Shown here one piece after another: positions 20,342-32,093 of a stretch of DNA of 32,098 nucleotides. The notes below the pieces were generated by a model. The model saw only the letters and a list, made by a program, of their open reading frames with translations, did not search any database and was not told where the DNA came from. Made by a program: the position numbers and the translations under genes. Position 1 is the first letter of the stretch. The number at the start of each line of letters is the position of its first letter. The stretch is from an uncultured Spirochaetaceae bacterium (GTDB taxonomy: Bacteria; Spirochaetota; Spirochaetia; Sphaerochaetales; Sphaerochaetaceae), in NCBI GenBank assembly GCA_944389075.1, contig CALXLA010000029.1, forward strand, positions 1 to 32,098. Direction: 5' to 3'.

Positions 20342-20406
20342 AGAAGCCTCCACTATAAGGATACTACCGGAAATGCATCATGGCCATATAATCCGTGAAA
20401 AGGCTG

Positions 20407-20435
20407 TTGCTGAGAGGTATCCAAAGACTTAGAAT
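20407..20435 (+). promoter_or_regulatory. predicted promoter of NSS transporter 1, leaderless
   Basis: TTGCTG (20407-20412), 17-nt spacer, TAGAAT (20430-20435), 7 nt to ATG 20443. It shares TTGCTG with the ATPase promoter and TAGAATCG with NSS transporter 2. Confidence 0.65.
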
Positions 20436-20442
20436 CGAATGC

Positions 20443-21819
20443 ATGGCTGAAAGAGAAACTCTCGCATCGCGTCTTGGCTTCATCCTCCTTTCCGCAGGAT
20501 GCGCCATAGGCCTCGGAAATGTCTGGCGCTTTCCGTACATAACAGGAGCTTATGGCGGAGCTGCCTTCGTACTTATCTATCTTATATTCCTCGTCATCAT
20601 AGGAATGCCTGTAATGGTCATGGAATTCTCATTGGGAAGGGCCTCGGGAAAGAATATCTCGCTTGCATTGCGGACACTTGAACCGAAGGGTACGAAATGG
20701 CATCTGTATGGACCAATAGCCATTGCCGGGAACTATCTACTGATGATGTTCTATACATGCATAACGGGCTGGCTTATCTATTACTTCTTCGCATCACTTC
20801 AGGGAAGGCTTTCGAATCTCGATGCGGATTCATCGGCGGCATTCTTCTCAGCATTGCAGTCAGAACCCATGACGATGTTCATCTGGACAGCAGTATCCAT
20901 AATCATCGCATTCCTGATCTGCCTCGGAGGCCTCCAGAAAGGCGTTGAGAAAGCATCGAAGATCATGATGATCTGCCTTATCGTCCTCATGGTGGTCCTT
21001 GCATTGAATTCGATACTCCTCCCGGGAGGCAGCGAAGGGCTGAAGTTCTATCTTGTCCCCGACTTTGGCAGAGCCATGGAAGCAGGACTGTCCGAAGTCA
21101 TATTCGCAGCTATGAGCCAGGCGTTCTTCACGCTCAGCATCGGAATGGGTGGAATGACGATCTTCGGCTCATACATCGGAAAGGATCAGTCTCTCACCGG
21201 AGAATCAGCGAGGATCATCGCTCTTGATACATCTGTCGCGCTGATGGCGGGTCTCATCATCTTCCCTGCATGCTTCGCATATGGTGTCAATCCAGGCTCC
21301 GGGCCCGGGCTTCTGTTCGTGACGCTTCCGAATGTCTTCGCGAAAATGTCTGGCGGAAGGATCTGGGGTTCCCTGTTCTTCCTCTTCATGACATTCGCGG
21401 CAATGACAACGCTGATAGCCGTATTCGAAAACATAATCGCATACTGGATGGACAATCATGGATGGTCAAGGAAGAAGGCCGTAGCTGTGAACATGCCCCT
21501 TATTATAGTCCTTGCGATTCCCTGCATCCTCGGCTTCAATCTGCTCTCGTCATTCCAGCCGCTTGGTGCTGGCACAGGAGTCCTTGATCTCGAGGATTTC
21601 CTGATCTCATCGACCATAATGCCGCTTGGCTCCCTTCTCTTCGTGATATTCTGCTCTCACAGATGCGGCTGGGGCTGGAAGAACTTCATAAAGGAAGCTG
21701 ATGAGGGCAAAGGCGTGAAGTTCCCTTCCTGGCTGCGGGTCTATGTCAGATGGATACTTCCTATCGTAATCATCGCGATATTCGCTAAAGGCTACTGGGA
21801 CATATTCTCAAAGCTTTAG
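20443..21819 (+). CDS. neurotransmitter:sodium symporter (NSS) family transporter 1
   Basis: Na+-coupled symporter of the LeuT fold, 458 aa, inner membrane, about eleven or twelve segments. I choose ATG 20443 (MAERETLASRLGFILLSAGC), which aligns exactly with its tandem copy; a longer reading from 20395 lies across the promoter. GCAIGLGNVWRFPY is the NSS TM1 signature with the sodium-site Gly and Asn, followed by YGGAAFVLIYLIFL and VMVMEFSLGR. SQAFFTLSIGMGGMTIFGSY is TM6, and FAAMTTLIAVFEN is TM8. Substrates of bacterial NSS are amino acids or related amines. About three quarters of its residues look identical to copy 2. Confidence 0.93.
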   Translation: MAERETLASRLGFILLSAGCAIGLGNVWRFPYITGAYGGAAFVLIYLIFLVIIGMPVMVMEFSLGRASGKNISLALRTLEPKGTKWHLYGPIAIAGNYLLMMFYTCITGWLIYYFFASLQGRLSNLDADSSAAFFSALQSEPMTMFIWTAVSIIIAFLICLGGLQKGVEKASKIMMICLIVLMVVLALNSILLPGGSEGLKFYLVPDFGRAMEAGLSEVIFAAMSQAFFTLSIGMGGMTIFGSYIGKDQSLTGESARIIALDTSVALMAGLIIFPACFAYGVNPGSGPGLLFVTLPNVFAKMSGGRIWGSLFFLFMTFAAMTTLIAVFENIIAYWMDNHGWSRKKAVAVNMPLIIVLAIPCILGFNLLSSFQPLGAGTGVLDLEDFLISSTIMPLGSLLFVIFCSHRCGWGWKNFIKEADEGKGVKFPSWLRVYVRWILPIVIIAIFAKGYWDIFSKL

Positions 21820-21822
21820 AGA

Positions 21823-21851
21823 TTCCACAATCGCGATACTGATGATAGAAT
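21823..21851 (+). promoter_or_regulatory. predicted promoter of NSS transporter 2, leaderless
   Basis: TTCCAC (21823-21828, weak -35), 17-nt spacer, TAGAAT (21846-21851), 7 nt to ATG 21859. The gene could also be read through from copy 1, 39 nt upstream, but then it lacks a ribosome site. Confidence 0.5.
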
Positions 21852-21858
21852 CGCCATT

Positions 21859-23223
21859 ATGAAAGAGAGAGAAACACTTGCATCCCGGCTTGGTTTCATC
21901 CTGCTCTCTGCCGGGTGTGCAATCGGACTGGGGAATGTATGGAGATTCCCATACATAACAGGTCAGTACGGAGGCGCGGCTTTCGTGCTGATTTATCTTA
22001 TCTTCCTTGTCATGGTCGGTCTTCCTGTAATGGTGATGGAGTTCGCTATAGGCAGGGCATCAAGGCAGAACATAACGCTTGCGCTCAGCACCCTTGAGAA
22101 GAAGGGCACGAAATGGCATCTCTATGGCCCAGTCGCTGCAGCAGGCAACTATATCCTGATGGCATACTACACAGTCGTGACAGGCTGGCTCATCTACTAC
22201 TTCTTCGCAATGCTCACCGGAAACATAGACAGCAATAACATATCAGCTGAATTCGCGGGACTCAGAAGCGATACGGCCATGCAGGTCATATGCACATCAG
22301 CTGCAATCATCATCGGTTTCGCGATCTGCCTAGGAGGCCTGAGGAAAAGCGTCGAGAAATCATCAAAGATCATGATGGGCTGTCTCATCGTGCTCATTGT
22401 AATACTTGCGATAAACTCGATAATCATCCCTGAAGGCGGAAAGGGACTCAGGTTCTATCTCGTTCCTGACTTCGGAAAGATGATCGAATCAGGCTTCTCG
22501 ACAACTGTATTCGCGGCCATGAGCCAGGCATTCTTCACCCTTGGTCTCGGAATCGGAAGCATGGAGATATTCGGTTCCTATATCGGCAAGGAACAGTCCC
22601 TTCTCGGCGAATCCGTGAGGATAATAACCCTTGATACATTCGTAGCACTCTTCTCCGGACTGATCATCTTCCCTGCATGCTTTGCCTATGATATAAATCC
22701 GGGAGCAGGCCCCGGCCTTATATTCGAAACACTTCCAGCAGTCTTCGCGAAGATGGCAGGCGGCAGGATCTGGGGTGCCCTGTTCTTCCTCTTCATGACA
22801 TTTGCGGCAATGACAACGCTTGTGGCTGTGTTCGAGAACATACTCTCATTCTGGATGGACAGAGGATGGTCAAGGAAGAAAGCCGTAGCTCTCAATCTTC
22901 CTCTAGTCATCCTCCTGTCGCTTCCATGCATACTCGGCTACAGCATATTCACATCATTCCAGCCGCTGGGGCCAGGGACTTCCGTCCTCGACATAGAAGA
23001 CTTCCTGATCTCATCGACAATCACGCCGCTCGGCTCAACGATACTTGTGCTGTTCTGCGCTCATCGTTATGGCTGGAGCTGGGACAGCTTCAAGAAGGAA
23101 GCGGATGAAGGAAAAGGACTGAAGATCCCGTCATGGATGAAAATCTATGTGAAGTACATCCTTCCGGCAGTAATCATCGCGATCTTCATCAAAGGCTACT
23201 GGGATATCTTCTCAAAGCTCTAG
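21859..23223 (+). CDS. neurotransmitter:sodium symporter (NSS) family transporter 2
   Basis: A tandem paralogue of the previous gene, 454 aa with the same topology: CAIGLGNVWRFPY in TM1, YGGAAFVLIYLIFLV, SQAFFTLGLGIGSMEIFGSY in TM6 and FAAMTTLVAVFEN in TM8, ending GYWDIFSKL in both. Differences cluster in loops (for example the extracellular segment after YYFFAML) and in TM6 (LGIGSME versus IGMGGMT), so substrate preference may differ. The last 12 nt overlap the convergent UPF0303 gene. The pair arose by duplication, and both copies remain intact. Confidence 0.93.
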   Translation: MKERETLASRLGFILLSAGCAIGLGNVWRFPYITGQYGGAAFVLIYLIFLVMVGLPVMVMEFAIGRASRQNITLALSTLEKKGTKWHLYGPVAAAGNYILMAYYTVVTGWLIYYFFAMLTGNIDSNNISAEFAGLRSDTAMQVICTSAAIIIGFAICLGGLRKSVEKSSKIMMGCLIVLIVILAINSIIIPEGGKGLRFYLVPDFGKMIESGFSTTVFAAMSQAFFTLGLGIGSMEIFGSYIGKEQSLLGESVRIITLDTFVALFSGLIIFPACFAYDINPGAGPGLIFETLPAVFAKMAGGRIWGALFFLFMTFAAMTTLVAVFENILSFWMDRGWSRKKAVALNLPLVILLSLPCILGYSIFTSFQPLGPGTSVLDIEDFLISSTITPLGSTILVLFCAHRYGWSWDSFKKEADEGKGLKIPSWMKIYVKYILPAVIIAIFIKGYWDIFSKL

Positions 23224-28235: not shown

Positions 28236-28667
28236 TTATTTTCCTATTTTTATCTCTATTTTCCCAGGATCCGTCTTAACCATCTTCGGAATCCTGATTG
28301 AAAGTATGCCATTTCTGCTCTCTGCTTCGATTGCATTGCGATCCGCGTCTTCAGGAAGCGAGAATGAGCGTGAGAACTGCGGAGTCTCGATTTCAGAAGA
28401 AATCAGCGATCTTGCTTCCCTTCTCTTCTCGATTCTGGCCTTCAGCGTCTCCGTCGACGAGATTGTCAGCGTTCCATCCTTTGCATAGACTCTGATCTCA
28501 TCATCAGAATAGCCTGCAGTCTCTGCCTCAATCACATATGCATCTGCAGTTTCGTAGATATCCACAGGTGGGAACTTCTTTGCTGAAGAGCCTGCTGTGA
28601 AGAAATCGTCGAAGAACGATCCGATATCTGATATATATGGTGTTGTCCTTGAAATGTAGTATCTCAT
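28236..28667 (-). CDS. hsp20: Hsp20/alpha-crystallin small heat-shock protein 1
   Basis: A holdase chaperone of 143 aa that binds unfolding proteins. PPVDIYETADAYVIEAETAGYS opens the alpha-crystallin domain, SRSFSLPEDADRNAIEAESRNGILSIRIPK carries the A-x-x-x-GIL signature near residue 120, and the tail has IEIKI, an I-x-I that docks oligomers. The start has AAGGAG 8 nt upstream. The N-terminal arm, with FFDDFFTAG, is short and aromatic-rich. It is monocistronic between a terminator and a sigma-54 promoter. It is more diverged from the second copy than the shared promoter suggests. Confidence 0.93.
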   Translation of the reverse strand: MRYYISRTTPYISDIGSFFDDFFTAGSSAKKFPPVDIYETADAYVIEAETAGYSDDEIRVYAKDGTLTISSTETLKARIEKRREARSLISSEIETPQFSRSFSLPEDADRNAIEAESRNGILSIRIPKMVKTDPGKIEIKIGK

Positions 28668-28694
28668 AATGTTTTCTCCTTACACCAACCATAC

Positions 28695-28711
28695 TGCAAC
28701 TTGTGTGCCAA
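28695..28711 (-). promoter_or_regulatory. predicted sigma-54 promoter of hsp20 gene 1
   Basis: On the minus strand TTGGCAC-ACAAG-TTGCA: the GG and GC are 12 nt apart start to start, exactly the -24/-12 spacing, and most positions match consensus. The predicted start, about 28685, gives an 18-nt leader that holds AAGGAG. Confidence 0.75.
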
Positions 28712-28817
28712 GTTTTATATATATCTATAATACAAGAATTTAACTTATAAACATCAGTACAGATGAATGCACTGTTCAGGCTTATTTGACACATGACTGG
28801 AAAAAACTCTCCTTTGC

Positions 28818-28832
28818 GTGTCATAATGACAC
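28818..28832. promoter_or_regulatory. palindromic upstream activator site for hsp20 gene 1
   Basis: GTGTCAT-A-ATGACAC, a perfect palindrome of 15 bp, about 133-147 bp upstream of the sigma-54 start, a normal range for enhancer binding. A half-site TTGACAC lies 40 bp closer to the promoter (28786-28792). The same site is found, slightly altered, at hsp20 gene 2. It is also only about 50 bp upstream of the divergent ybaK start. Confidence 0.65.
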
Positions 28833-28869
28833 TTGATGAAAAACTCTGGCCCTGAATGTCCAAAAACGC

Positions 28870-28875
28870 TACACT
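28870..28875 (+). promoter_or_regulatory. predicted -10 of ybaK-type gene, leaderless
   Basis: TACACT lies 6 nt before ATG 28882. No Shine-Dalgarno sequence precedes the gene, and a -35 is not clear. Confidence 0.4.
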
Positions 28876-28881
28876 CTGGCT

Positions 28882-29352
28882 ATGTCAGTCAAAACAGTAA
28901 GGGAATATCTTGAGCCTTTTGGCTTCAGCGACAGGATAATAGAATTCAGTCAGTCGAGTGCGACTGTCAGGGAAGCTGCGGAAGACCTTGGCACAGAAGA
29001 AGGCCGCATTGCGAAATCAATGAGCTTTCTGACAGCTTCCGGCCCGATAATAATCGTGCTTGCAGGCGACAGGAAGATCGATAACAGGAAATTCAAGGAC
29101 ACATTCCATGAAAAAGCAAGGATGATTGGTCCCGATGATGTCGAAGAGCTTACAGGCCATCCCGTAGGTGGAGTATGTCCTTTTGCACCGAAAGCGGGAG
29201 TGAAGGTATATCTCGACAACTCGCTCAGGGACTTTGAGACAGTCTTCCCTGCGGCAGGTTCCAGGAACAGTGCCATCGAAATGACACCGGAAGAGCTTGA
29301 AAAAACATCCAGCCCCGAAAGCTGGATAGATGTATCGAAGAAGATTGAATGA
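28882..29352 (+). CDS. YbaK/EbsC-family aminoacyl-tRNA deacylase
   Basis: A stand-alone editing-domain protein of 156 aa. IAKSMSFLTASGPIIIVLAGDRKID (about 43-67) carries the conserved lysine that acts in deacylation, and HPVGGVCPFAPKAGVKVYLD (about 93-112) is the family hallmark. Family members hydrolyse mischarged tRNA such as Cys-tRNA(Pro) or Ala-tRNA(Pro). Which one cannot be told here. It is divergent from hsp20 gene 1, sharing the intergenic region with its activator site. Confidence 0.9.
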   Translation: MSVKTVREYLEPFGFSDRIIEFSQSSATVREAAEDLGTEEGRIAKSMSFLTASGPIIIVLAGDRKIDNRKFKDTFHEKARMIGPDDVEELTGHPVGGVCPFAPKAGVKVYLDNSLRDFETVFPAAGSRNSAIEMTPEELEKTSSPESWIDVSKKIE

Positions 29353-29374
29353 GAGGATGCCGAGAAGCATCCTC
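29353..29374. terminator. hairpin between convergent genes
   Basis: GAGGATGC, loop CGAGAA, GCATCCTC: an 8-bp stem directly after the ybaK-type stop and 11 nt before the phosphorylase-fold gene's stop. A TCTTTT run lies eight nt past the stem on the plus side. Confidence 0.6.
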
Positions 29375-29385
29375 CCAGAGTCTTT

Positions 29386-30399
29386 TCAGAATGTTCCTGC
29401 CAGAATGGCATCGATGAGAACCTTTCCGACTTTATAGTTGTTCTCCATGGCAATCGGGAAGATATCTGCGGTCTCCGGTCTTGAGCCTGGAGCGATAGGT
29501 ACCGTGTAGTCGCCCCATGTGCTCTCCGGGCCTGCGCCATTCATGAACACATCCATGTTAACGCTATCGCGGATGACGATATAGCGGTCAAGCATGCCAA
29601 GCCTGTCGAGCGCTACTGCGACTGCGATGTCTTCCATCTCTGTCACTGCATATGGATCAGGCACTCCATAAGTCTCAGCCTGAAGCTTTGCGTTTGCCTC
29701 ATCATACTCGCCTTTCCAGAAGTTGTCCCCAGATGTTGTGGTACCAAGAAGGACCTGAGGATCCCTTGTTGCCCACTCTTCACCAGGGAATGCCGCAGCC
29801 ATGAAGTTCTTTGTTCTCTCAGATGTCTCGATCTCTGTGTCCTTCACAAGATTATAGACCTTATGGGCAAGTTCCTGATTGAGGATCTTATATGATGAGC
29901 TGTCATATGTCTCAGCATGGAACCATGTCGTATCCGATGGGAATACGAGTTCCCTTGGATCCGCATGATGTCCAAGATCATAATCGATGCATGCTGTAGC
30001 GATGATGACATCTCCCATTACTGTCGTTTCACGTACGGAACCTGCGCTTCCTGTGCTGATGATGTATGCATCAGAGAAGTCAAAACGCGGATCTGTGAGT
30101 ATCAGAGCTGTGCTTATGGCTGTATTGACCTTGCCCATGCCTGTGACGTAGAGAGCAACTCCGTCCTTCACATAGAGCTTGTGACCTGGCATGCCGCCCC
30201 TGATCTCATACTCATCGCCACCCTGGACATAGCCCTCATAATAGTACTGGGCCTCTCCGGGGAAATCCCCTGCCATCTCACCATTCTCGAATTTCGGAAG
30301 GATCAGGACCTTGATATCGATTGGCTCAGCAGCATCAGCAGCTGCTACAGACGAAACGACTGCAAGAGCCATAAGAAGCCCGCAAACAAGTTTCCTCAT
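29386..30399 (-). CDS. exported nucleoside-phosphorylase-fold protein (purine nucleoside permease, NUP family)
   Basis: A NUP-family protein of 337 aa. I choose ATG 30399 (MRKLVCGLLMALAVV) because GAGG lies nearby; a longer reading from 30459 covers the promoter. A signal peptide (to about SVAAADA) marks it as exported. VLILPKFENGE and FPGEAQYYYE, TGMGKVNTAISTALILTDPRFDFSD, ISTGSAGSV, DLGHHADPRE and DIFPIAMENNY are family blocks; the core resembles nucleoside phosphorylases. It is known in fungi as a nucleoside permease, but here a soluble periplasmic binding or processing role is more plausible. It joins a nucleoside theme with the hydrolase operon at 4979-6837. A TATAAT at 30436-30441 leaves a 30-nt leader. 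Confidence 0.85.
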   Translation of the reverse strand: MRKLVCGLLMALAVVSSVAAADAAEPIDIKVLILPKFENGEMAGDFPGEAQYYYEGYVQGGDEYEIRGGMPGHKLYVKDGVALYVTGMGKVNTAISTALILTDPRFDFSDAYIISTGSAGSVRETTVMGDVIIATACIDYDLGHHADPRELVFPSDTTWFHAETYDSSSYKILNQELAHKVYNLVKDTEIETSERTKNFMAAAFPGEEWATRDPQVLLGTTTSGDNFWKGEYDEANAKLQAETYGVPDPYAVTEMEDIAVAVALDRLGMLDRYIVIRDSVNMDVFMNGAGPESTWGDYTVPIAPGSRPETADIFPIAMENNYKVGKVLIDAILAGTF

Positions 30400-30466
30400 T
30401 GTGTGTACCTCGCAATATGTTGATGCCCTTTTGTTATTATAAATTACGATATAGGTCAATAGATAT

Positions 30467-30496
30467 GAAGAAACCCTCCAGACAGCATCTGGAGGG
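30467..30496 (-). terminator. Rho-independent terminator of hsp20 gene 2
   Basis: CCCTCCAG (30474-30481), loop ACAGCAT, CTGGAGGG (30489-30496), followed on the minus strand by TTTCTTC. It isolates hsp20 gene 2 from the downstream phosphorylase-fold gene. Confidence 0.75.
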
Positions 30497-30522
30497 CCAA
30501 TGTCTTACTGAGGAAGCAGAAG

Positions 30523-30951
30523 TTACTTCCTAGAGATTTTCACCTCAATATGCCTTGGCTTCTCCTCAGGAAGCTTCGGGAGTGTCAGCGAGAGTATTCC
30601 ATTGCTGAACTCTGCGCCGATATTGCTCTCATCAAGTCCTTCAGGAAGCGAGAATGAGCGGCTAAATGAACTATGACGTCTCTCCCTTATGAGATACTTC
30701 CTGCCGCTCTCATCCTCTTCTTTCTTATTTCCTTCAATATAAAGGACATGCTTATCGACATAGATCTTCACATCATCTTCCGTATATCCTGGAAGTTCTG
30801 CCTTGATTACGAATGCATTGTCATTCTCTTCGACATCCATTGCAGGTGCCTTTGCTGAGTATGACCCCCACGCATCAAGCATCGAATCAAAGAAATCATC
30901 GAACATATCCCTTCTATTCCTATCATTATATCTTGTTACATCGTTAGCCAT
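30523..30951 (-). CDS. hsp20: Hsp20/alpha-crystallin small heat-shock protein 2
   Basis: A holdase of 142 aa. PAMDVEENDNAFVIKAELPGYTEDDVKIYVDKHVLYIEG begins the alpha-crystallin domain, SFSRSFSLPEGLDESNIGAEFSNGILSLTLPK has the A-x-x-x-GIL signature, and the end is IEVKIS (I-x-I). This copy is closer to the bacterial Hsp20 norm than gene 1, with ELPG and an RRHSSFSRSFSLP loop. AGGAGG lies about 8 nt before the ATG. It has its own sigma-54 promoter and terminator. Confidence 0.95.
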   Translation of the reverse strand: MANDVTRYNDRNRRDMFDDFFDSMLDAWGSYSAKAPAMDVEENDNAFVIKAELPGYTEDDVKIYVDKHVLYIEGNKKEEDESGRKYLIRERRHSSFSRSFSLPEGLDESNIGAEFSNGILSLTLPKLPEEKPRHIEVKISRK

Positions 30952-30993
30952 TTTAGTGCCTCCTATGGTTATTTTCTTTTACATAAATCATAT

Positions 30994-31010
30994 TGCATGA
31001 AGTATGCCAA
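30994..31010 (-). promoter_or_regulatory. predicted sigma-54 promoter of hsp20 gene 2
   Basis: On the minus strand TTGGCAT-ACTTC-ATGCA: GG and GC again lie 12 nt apart. The -12 box deviates at one position from TTGC. The predicted start, about 30984, gives a 33-nt leader with AGGAGG. Confidence 0.65.
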
Positions 31011-31075
31011 CTTTTATAAATTCATGTATTATAATTAATTATTAATTTCTAATTAATTAAGAGAAAATACATAAA

Positions 31076-31090
31076 GCGTCAAAATGACAC
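31076..31090. promoter_or_regulatory. upstream activator site for hsp20 gene 2
   Basis: GCGTCAA-A-ATGACAC matches the 15-bp palindrome upstream of hsp20 gene 1 at 13 of 15 positions. It lies about 92-106 bp upstream of the sigma-54 start. A weaker half-match (TCGTCAT, 31105-31111) lies beyond it. Confidence 0.6.
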
Positions 31091-31251: not shown

Positions 31252-32093
31252 TCATTTATACATTGGCGTTTCTTCTTTCAGGCTCATTACTTCCTCAATG
31301 GAAAGACCTGAATACTCAGCAACCTTGTCAAGCGGAAGAATCCCATCAAGAATCATGCTCTGTGCATTCTTCTTACGCATTTCCATACGCCCTTCATTGA
31401 TTCCCTCAATACGGCCTTCCTCAAGCGCCTTTGCCCTTGCTTCCTTTGCTCCGATCTCTCTCGCCCTCTCAAGCGCTTTCTCGAATACTCCTGTCATGAC
31501 TGCCATTCCCTCCTTTGTCTCCTTGTATTTCCTCACTGCATTCCTGATCTCAGTATAGTGCATCTTGCAAGGCTCCGCGCACATCAAGTCTGCCATAAGC
31601 TTGCCAAGTGCAGTATCAGAGCCAGCATTCTCTGCATTCGCATATATGATATGAGACCCATCCCCGAATGACATCAGAGGCTCTGCCACCATCCTGTCTA
31701 TCCATAGAGGTCCTTCCCCTTTCCTATGGGGTCCTTATCTGTCAGGAATATCATATAGGACTCAGGAAGCTTCCTGTAGTCCTCGCCGCTTTCCAGAAGG
31801 GATGTATCTATCGATGAGCTGTAATATCTTGCCCGCTTTGGCTCTGCCTCGCTCTCATCATTCTGTATCTCGATATCATACACATCCCCATTGCTGTCCT
31901 CTGCGAGGATATCGAGGATGGCTGAATGCCTCCCGAGGTTCACAACCCATTCCTGCACGCTTGCTCTCATAACCTTGAGGTCATCCCTTCCAAGGATTAT
32001 CCTGAGCATGAGATCCACGCATTCAGGATTCTCGCTGAAGCACTTCGTGAAGAACAGATTATCAGTCAGCTTCATGCCACTGATGATCCTCAT
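31252..32093 (-). pseudogene. Rpn/PD-(D/E)XK nuclease-family transposase, split by a frameshift
   Basis: Two adjacent minus-strand frames together read as one Rpn/PDDEXK_2 protein of about 280 aa. The upstream part (32093 to 31698) has LTDNLFFTKCFSENPECVDLML, the nuclease core DILAEDSNGDVYDIEIQND (D-x(n)-E-I-Q) and YMIFLTDKD, then stops at TAG after KGKDLYG. The downstream part (31692 to 31252) begins in another frame; the bases before its first ATG read I-D-R directly, and it continues FGDGSHIIYAN to a charged tail, EARAKALEEGRIEGINEGRMEMRKK. Loss of one base near 31700-31704 (after CTCTAT) explains it. The family promotes RecA-independent recombination. The first ATG is five bases from the window's right edge, so the true start may lie outside. 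Confidence 0.8.

Follow-up and report, generated by a model that had tools for sequence, protein, structure and literature searches.

A predicted sigma-54-dependent stress regulon of Spirochaetia, most likely driven by an ortholog of Borrelia Rrp2

Introduction

The Rrp2-RpoN-RpoS cascade of Borrelia is well studied, and ZraS of Escherichia coli is known as a periplasmic sensor of metal and envelope stress. In the former, the single enhancer-binding protein (EBP) of the organism drives a sigma-54-dependent sigma-factor gene (PMC2940757); the latter belongs to ZraSR, an NtrC-family two-component pair that controls the chaperone gene zraP. As such, a small heat-shock gene under sigma-54 has precedents. 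In E. coli, sigma-54 transcribes ibpB, according to work cited in PMC4370416, and a 2025 survey listed chaperone genes, IbpA among them, as predicted targets of sigma-54, chiefly in Planctomycetota and Bacteroidota (PMC12316311). Here we describe two hsp20 genes, hsp20-A and hsp20-B, located in a contig (C29) of a 2.23-Mb metagenome-assembled genome of a spirochaete; the whole stretch analysed, 32,098 nucleotides, is referred to as the window. Very probably, the elements that precede these genes are sigma-54 promoters and enhancer sites of an NtrC-family activator, designated EBP1 below, and belong to a small, deeply conserved stress regulon of the class Spirochaetia, the targets of which are hsp20 and one group-2 RpoS-like sigma-factor gene.

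Results

Control regions of the hsp20 genes

The gene hsp20-A (28236-28667, minus strand) encodes a small heat-shock protein of 143 aa (Pfam PF00011, E 2.9e-18). Upstream of its ATG at 28667 one reads the Shine-Dalgarno sequence AAGGAGA (28675-28681, minus strand) and then, 28 bp before the ATG, the promoter TTGGCACACAAGTTGCA (28695-28711, minus strand), which has 0 mismatches to TGGCAYNNNNNTTGCW, its TTGGCAC-ACAAG-TTGCA being a perfect instance of TGGCAY-N5-TTGCW. The pattern search placed the palindrome GTGTCATAATGACAC, a predicted activator site (28818-28832, no strand assigned), with its start 121 bp upstream of the promoter. A predicted, degenerate second site, GTGTCAAATAAGCCT (28778-28792, minus strand), follows this perfect palindrome exactly 40 bp further downstream, and this distance is the same as the conserved tandem spacing in relatives. 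The second gene, hsp20-B (30523-30951, minus strand; 142 aa, Pfam PF00011, E 1.1e-25), is preceded by the Shine-Dalgarno sequence GGAGG (30959-30963, minus strand), by the promoter TTGGCATACTTCATGCA (30994-31010, minus strand; TTGGCAT-ACTTC-ATGCA, one mismatch) 43 bp before the ATG at 30951, and by the predicted palindromic site GTGTCATTTTGACGC (31076-31090, no strand assigned; a 13/15 match), the start of which is 80 bp upstream of the promoter. Both promoters and both palindromes had been reported in a preliminary description of the window and were recovered at the same positions, on the minus strand.

As to other modes of control, no CIRCE-type repeat (controlling inverted repeat of chaperone expression) was seen in the upstream regions of hsp20-A and hsp20-B, and in 23 hsp20 regions of relatives CIRCE (TTAGCACTC-N9-GAGTGCTAA) had no match with up to 4 mismatches. 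Rfam gave no match to an RNA thermometer of the ROSE type (repression of heat-shock gene expression) in the window at the gathering threshold, and the frequency of sigma-70-like matches near the hsp20 genes was not above that in shuffled sequences.

Occurrence of the elements in the genome

With up to 2 mismatches, GTGTCATWATGACAC occurs 7 times in the genome, compared with one occurrence of the reversed pattern; the consensus of the palindrome across sites is GKGTCAWWWTGACMC. The exact composite, defined as the palindrome core followed after 63-123 bp by the sigma-54 promoter, was found three times (0 for the reversed pattern, which served as the control here and below), so that the layout shared by the two hsp20 loci goes beyond chance, as had been proposed. 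Besides hsp20-A and hsp20-B, the composite precedes a gene on contig C20 that encodes an RpoS-like sigma factor of 293 aa, for which RpoS is the top NCBIfam model, with a score under the cut-off. The promoter of this gene, TTGGCACACTTTCTGCA (C20:1683-1699), has one mismatch, and two clear palindromes, exactly 40 bp apart, are situated 94 and 134 bp upstream of it. The strict scan for TTGGCAYN6TGCW returned ten places in the genome, and only at the sigma-factor gene and three hsp20 genes were there palindromes upstream. The third hsp20 gene (contig C3) has a sigma-54 promoter and two degenerate sites 41 bp apart; as the genome contains exactly three hsp20 genes, all of them share the layout of promoter and palindrome. 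Five further strict matches, lying within or between genes, and one before an unrelated open reading frame (ORF) on contig C16 were set aside, all being without palindromes. The degenerate second site of hsp20-A, the third hsp20 gene, the sigma-factor gene and the deep conservation of the system had escaped the preliminary description.

Candidate activator and its kinase

The description had suggested looking for rpoN and for NtrC-type activators. The genome possesses rpoN (PF04552, E 2.3e-47) and three genes with the sigma-54 activator domain (score of at least 149 bits). One of the three, EBP1, combines a receiver domain (PF00072), an AAA+ domain (PF00158) with the GAFTGA motif and a Fis-type helix-turn-helix (HTH; PF02954), all over the cut-off. 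For the histidine kinase encoded beside it Pfam gives HisKA and HATPase only, with no apparent membrane part. In many genomes the tandem sites and one EBP gene share a contig, a few kilobases apart at most, and EBP1 and the kinase are found 3-7 kb from the sigma-factor gene, a linkage that extends across families and holds in most of the lineages examined. The gene order, with variations, is holB - histidine kinase - EBP1 - dinG-like helicase - groES - small TPR/SEC-C protein - sites and promoter - sigma factor - ppdK; in the genome of the window this neighbourhood is divided between contigs C18 and C20. EBP1 was present at full length in 14/14 further genomes tested.

The E. coli ZraSR system resembles this one in that the HTH of ZraR is similar to that of EBP1, and the zraP-zraS intergenic region, which is the control region of ZraR, contains GAGTAAAAATGACTC and its inverse, close to GKGTCAWWWTGACMC. 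The two systems differ in the site spacing and in the targets, and the kinase here is without an apparent membrane part. Considering the linkage, the phylogenetic spread and these ZraR-like sites, we infer that EBP1 would be the protein that binds the palindromes. A comparison by eye of site sequences with recognition helices (LHRK versus IQRK/ITRR) within the genus did not give a clean covariation.

Conservation and targets in Spirochaetia

In 100 related genomes the composite was matched 77 times, as against 3 matches of the control. Among 30 composite loci that were fetched, 28 lead an hsp20 or this RpoS-like sigma-factor gene; of the other two, one is cut off by the contig end after MAQDVTR, which resembles the start of an hsp20, and the other is a chance match. 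Within the limits of the exact pattern, the regulon thus has two target families. Some matches to the tandem core turned out to be a coding coincidence: several of them encode T-H-x-P-T-G-(I/L)-V-V-x-C-Q-(D/N)-E, which by eye is like a peptide-chain release factor.

Both the promoter and the palindrome are kept upstream of the target genes in relatives, in agreement with the conservation that the preliminary description had called for. Upstream of the sigma-factor gene (49 loci of Spirochaetota) the promoter is present within 320 bp in 45/49 (shuffled mean 0.36), at least one palindrome in 42/49 (shuffled mean 0.39) and a pair of palindromes exactly 40 bp apart in 31/49 (0 in the shuffles); the spacings comprise 40 bp (42 pairs), 80 bp (11 pairs) and two others. 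The hsp20 regions, taken from many families, contain the promoter in 39/40 cases (shuffled mean 0.26), the single one devoid of it being from a Borrelia, and the palindrome in 33/40 (shuffled mean 0.24). The distances from site to promoter follow a 10.5-bp period (Rayleigh p ~1e-6 for hsp20 and 2e-5 for the sigma-factor gene, related loci being non-independent), as looping from a single face of the DNA would predict.

Expression of the orthologs in Treponema denticola

Published primers for TDE0934-TDE0937 match one of the loci analysed (L265) with 0-1 mismatches, which identifies its sigma factor, adjoining groES, as TDE0937. In arrays, TDE0937 was induced 2.8-, 21.8- and 14.0-fold after heat, oxygen and osmotic downshift, respectively, and the Hsp20 gene TDE1029 about 9.5-, 8.5- and 6.7-fold (PMC2965109). 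The T. denticola core stress response shares with our system an ortholog of the sigma factor, co-induced with Hsp20. The difference is that TDE0937 itself was proposed there as a stress regulator, with its upstream control unnamed, and that the T. denticola sites are degenerate; upstream of hsp20 in this organism, the sigma-54 promoter is perfect and there is one site, an imperfect one. In the literature outside subscription papers we found no description of the regulon, of its site or of TDE0937 as a sigma-54 target.

Comparison with the Borrelia cascade

The Borreliaceae genomes, which represent two genera of one family, were assigned here by a Borrelia-type 16S primer site. In all five of them the best match of EBP1 is full length, with 49-52% identity. 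It is encoded at about 805 kb of the ~0.9-Mb chromosome, the 16S gene being near 445 kb, in the preserved order murG-cvpA-holB-histidine kinase-EBP and about 7 kb from an rpoS-like gene. The location and order match those published for rrp2, hk2 and rpoS, with EBP1 orthologous to Borrelia Rrp2 and its kinase corresponding in position to HK2. In a genome resembling that of T. pallidum, the kinase beside the Rrp2 ortholog is divided over two ORFs (L223:11138-12441).

Apart from the orthologous EBP and the adjacent kinase, the two systems have in common a sigma-54 promoter on an alternative sigma-factor gene, which in the case of Borrelia rpoS is TGGCACAATTTTTGCA. However, there are tandem palindromes near the promoter and hsp20 targets here, whereas no palindrome was found in the region upstream of Borrelia rpoS. 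The retention of the promoter together with the absence of palindromes matches the published enhancer-independent activation by Rrp2: the protein was reported not to bind the 238 bp that precede rpoS and to need no enhancer for activation (PMC1976401; see also Blevins 2009, as cited in PMC3037356).

The approximately unbiased (AU) test rejects a single clade for the sigma factor described here and Borrelia RpoS (p 0.003, to be read with caution because of long branches). Borrelia RpoS was accordingly dismissed as an ortholog on the basis of the tree and this test, and, since it falls outside the clade, a change of the target sigma factor seems to have taken place. One genome (L272) contains a second group-2 sigma-factor gene with a perfect sigma-54 promoter, TGGCACGGTTGTTGCA, and no palindrome; this paralogous sigma factor is found in a tree clade that also holds Borrelia RpoS.

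The recognition helix of EBP1 reads IGRKTLHRK in most lineages with palindromes and IGRKTLHNK in 5/5 Borreliaceae. In the T. pallidum-like genome it is IGRKTLYLK, and this genome has no hsp20 and no clear palindrome. The change of the helix fits a loss of site specificity, although the relation is only correlative. As for hsp20, it is present in two relapsing-fever-type Borrelia (L235 and L239) and missing from three Lyme-type genomes; a near match to the sigma-54 promoter, TGGTATGGTTTTTGCA, precedes one of the two genes and none precedes the other, and neither has a palindrome.

Discussion

In the mechanism that we propose, a cytosolic histidine kinase would phosphorylate EBP1, which would then bind palindromes of the type GKGTCAWWWTGACMC, usually arranged in tandem 40 bp apart, the nearest of them mostly 80-145 bp upstream of the promoter. 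From there EBP1 would reach, by looping, the sigma-54 polymerase poised at TGGCAY-N5-TTGC, and its hydrolysis of ATP would open the promoter. Both the looping and a trigger acting on the kinase are presumed. The output would consist of small chaperones, made at once, and of an alternative sigma factor able to spread the response to further genes. Sigma-54 transcription of E. coli ibpB concerns a small heat-shock gene as well, but there it is an extra promoter inside a sigma-32 operon, while here it is the rule for hsp20 lead genes throughout the class, coupled to a sigma factor.

The preliminary description had predicted an EBP dedicated to protein-folding stress in this lineage. EBP genes are indeed present, but "this lineage" proved too narrow, since the architecture spans the class Spirochaetia, and a dedication to protein-folding stress is unsupported, because an alternative sigma factor is among the targets and the likely activator, EBP1, is orthologous to Borrelia Rrp2. 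That this ortholog drives the regulon is the most likely assignment.

Several alternatives should be weighed against the proposed regulon. The composition of the elements out of short motifs invites the suspicion of a merely coincidental layout, the more so as GG-N10-GC alone is common (50 matches with up to 2 mismatches in the window, 36 expected). Such chance matching is already refuted by the class-wide conservation, and with the excess of the composite over its control, both in the genome and in the 100 relatives, and the recurrence of the same two target families, we give it practically no credence. It is also quite improbable that the palindrome is the operator of an unrelated stress regulator, e.g., a repressor, lying upstream of sigma-54 promoters by happenstance. 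Many dimeric regulators do typically have palindromes of this size; however, the far-upstream position, the 40-bp tandems and the 10.5-bp phasing fit an enhancer rather than an operator, and nearly the same sites occur in the control region of ZraR, itself an EBP whose HTH is similar.

The promoters and enhancers could also be real but served by another EBP, either EBP2 (contig C57) or a lineage-specific one, with EBP1 being a mere neighbour. The existence of three EBPs in the genome speaks for this explanation, which we nevertheless consider unlikely: EBP1 is the one linked to the sigma-factor gene across families and present in every genome tested, and its ortholog is the only EBP of Borrelia, where it drives a sigma-54-dependent sigma-factor gene. 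Moreover, EBP2 has a different HTH, with the recognition helix ISRRTLISK versus IGRKTLHRK, and EBP3 (L003:1087-2181, 364 aa), which has the sigma-54 AAA+ domain and an unusual N-terminus, shows no visible HTH. Nevertheless, some observations weigh against the assignment to EBP1 and against the regulon as we draw it. Given the other EBPs, the choice of EBP1 as the binder relies on linkage and phylogenetic spread; some hsp20 regions with a sigma-54 promoter (7/40) lack a clear palindrome; TDE0937 has a degenerate promoter (TTAGCAT-N5-TTGCT) and weak sites, so that induction of this gene may partly use other control; and the support from T. denticola expression is correlative.

With these reservations, a sigma-54 regulon activated by EBP1, representing a stress circuit that was ancestral in spirochaetes and underwent later rewiring in Borrelia, remains the best reading of the data. 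On balance we lean, somewhat cautiously, towards a specific course of this rewiring, in which the Lyme-disease virulence switch (HK2-Rrp2-RpoN-RpoS) descends from the protein-stress circuit through the loss of the enhancers, the replacement of the helix IGRKTLHRK by IGRKTLHNK, the departure of hsp20 from the regulon or the genome, and the adoption of a paralogous sigma factor as the target.

The regulon is concrete and testable, and it concerns a stress response that has been little studied, in an entire class of bacteria. It yields a prediction for the DNA site bound by the relatives of Rrp2, names the sigma factor as a second output and would explain the joint rise of TDE0937 and Hsp20 in T. 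denticola. It also offers an evolutionary answer to the long-standing question why Borrelia Rrp2 keeps its DNA-binding domain though no enhancer has been found, and suggests that the Lyme virulence switch has its origin in an older response to stress.

Other features of the window

Upstream of hsp20-B, at 31252-32093 (minus strand), there are two adjacent ORFs of 131 and 146 aa, which by eye look like one frameshift-broken gene of the Rpn/PD-(D/E)XK type. An ORF similar to them (L198:3-701) is located at the start of contig C20, near the sigma-factor gene. At 20395-23223 (plus strand) the window contains two tandem, nearly alike ORFs of 474 and 454 aa, resembling the sodium:neurotransmitter symporter family; judging by eye, they result from a recent duplication.

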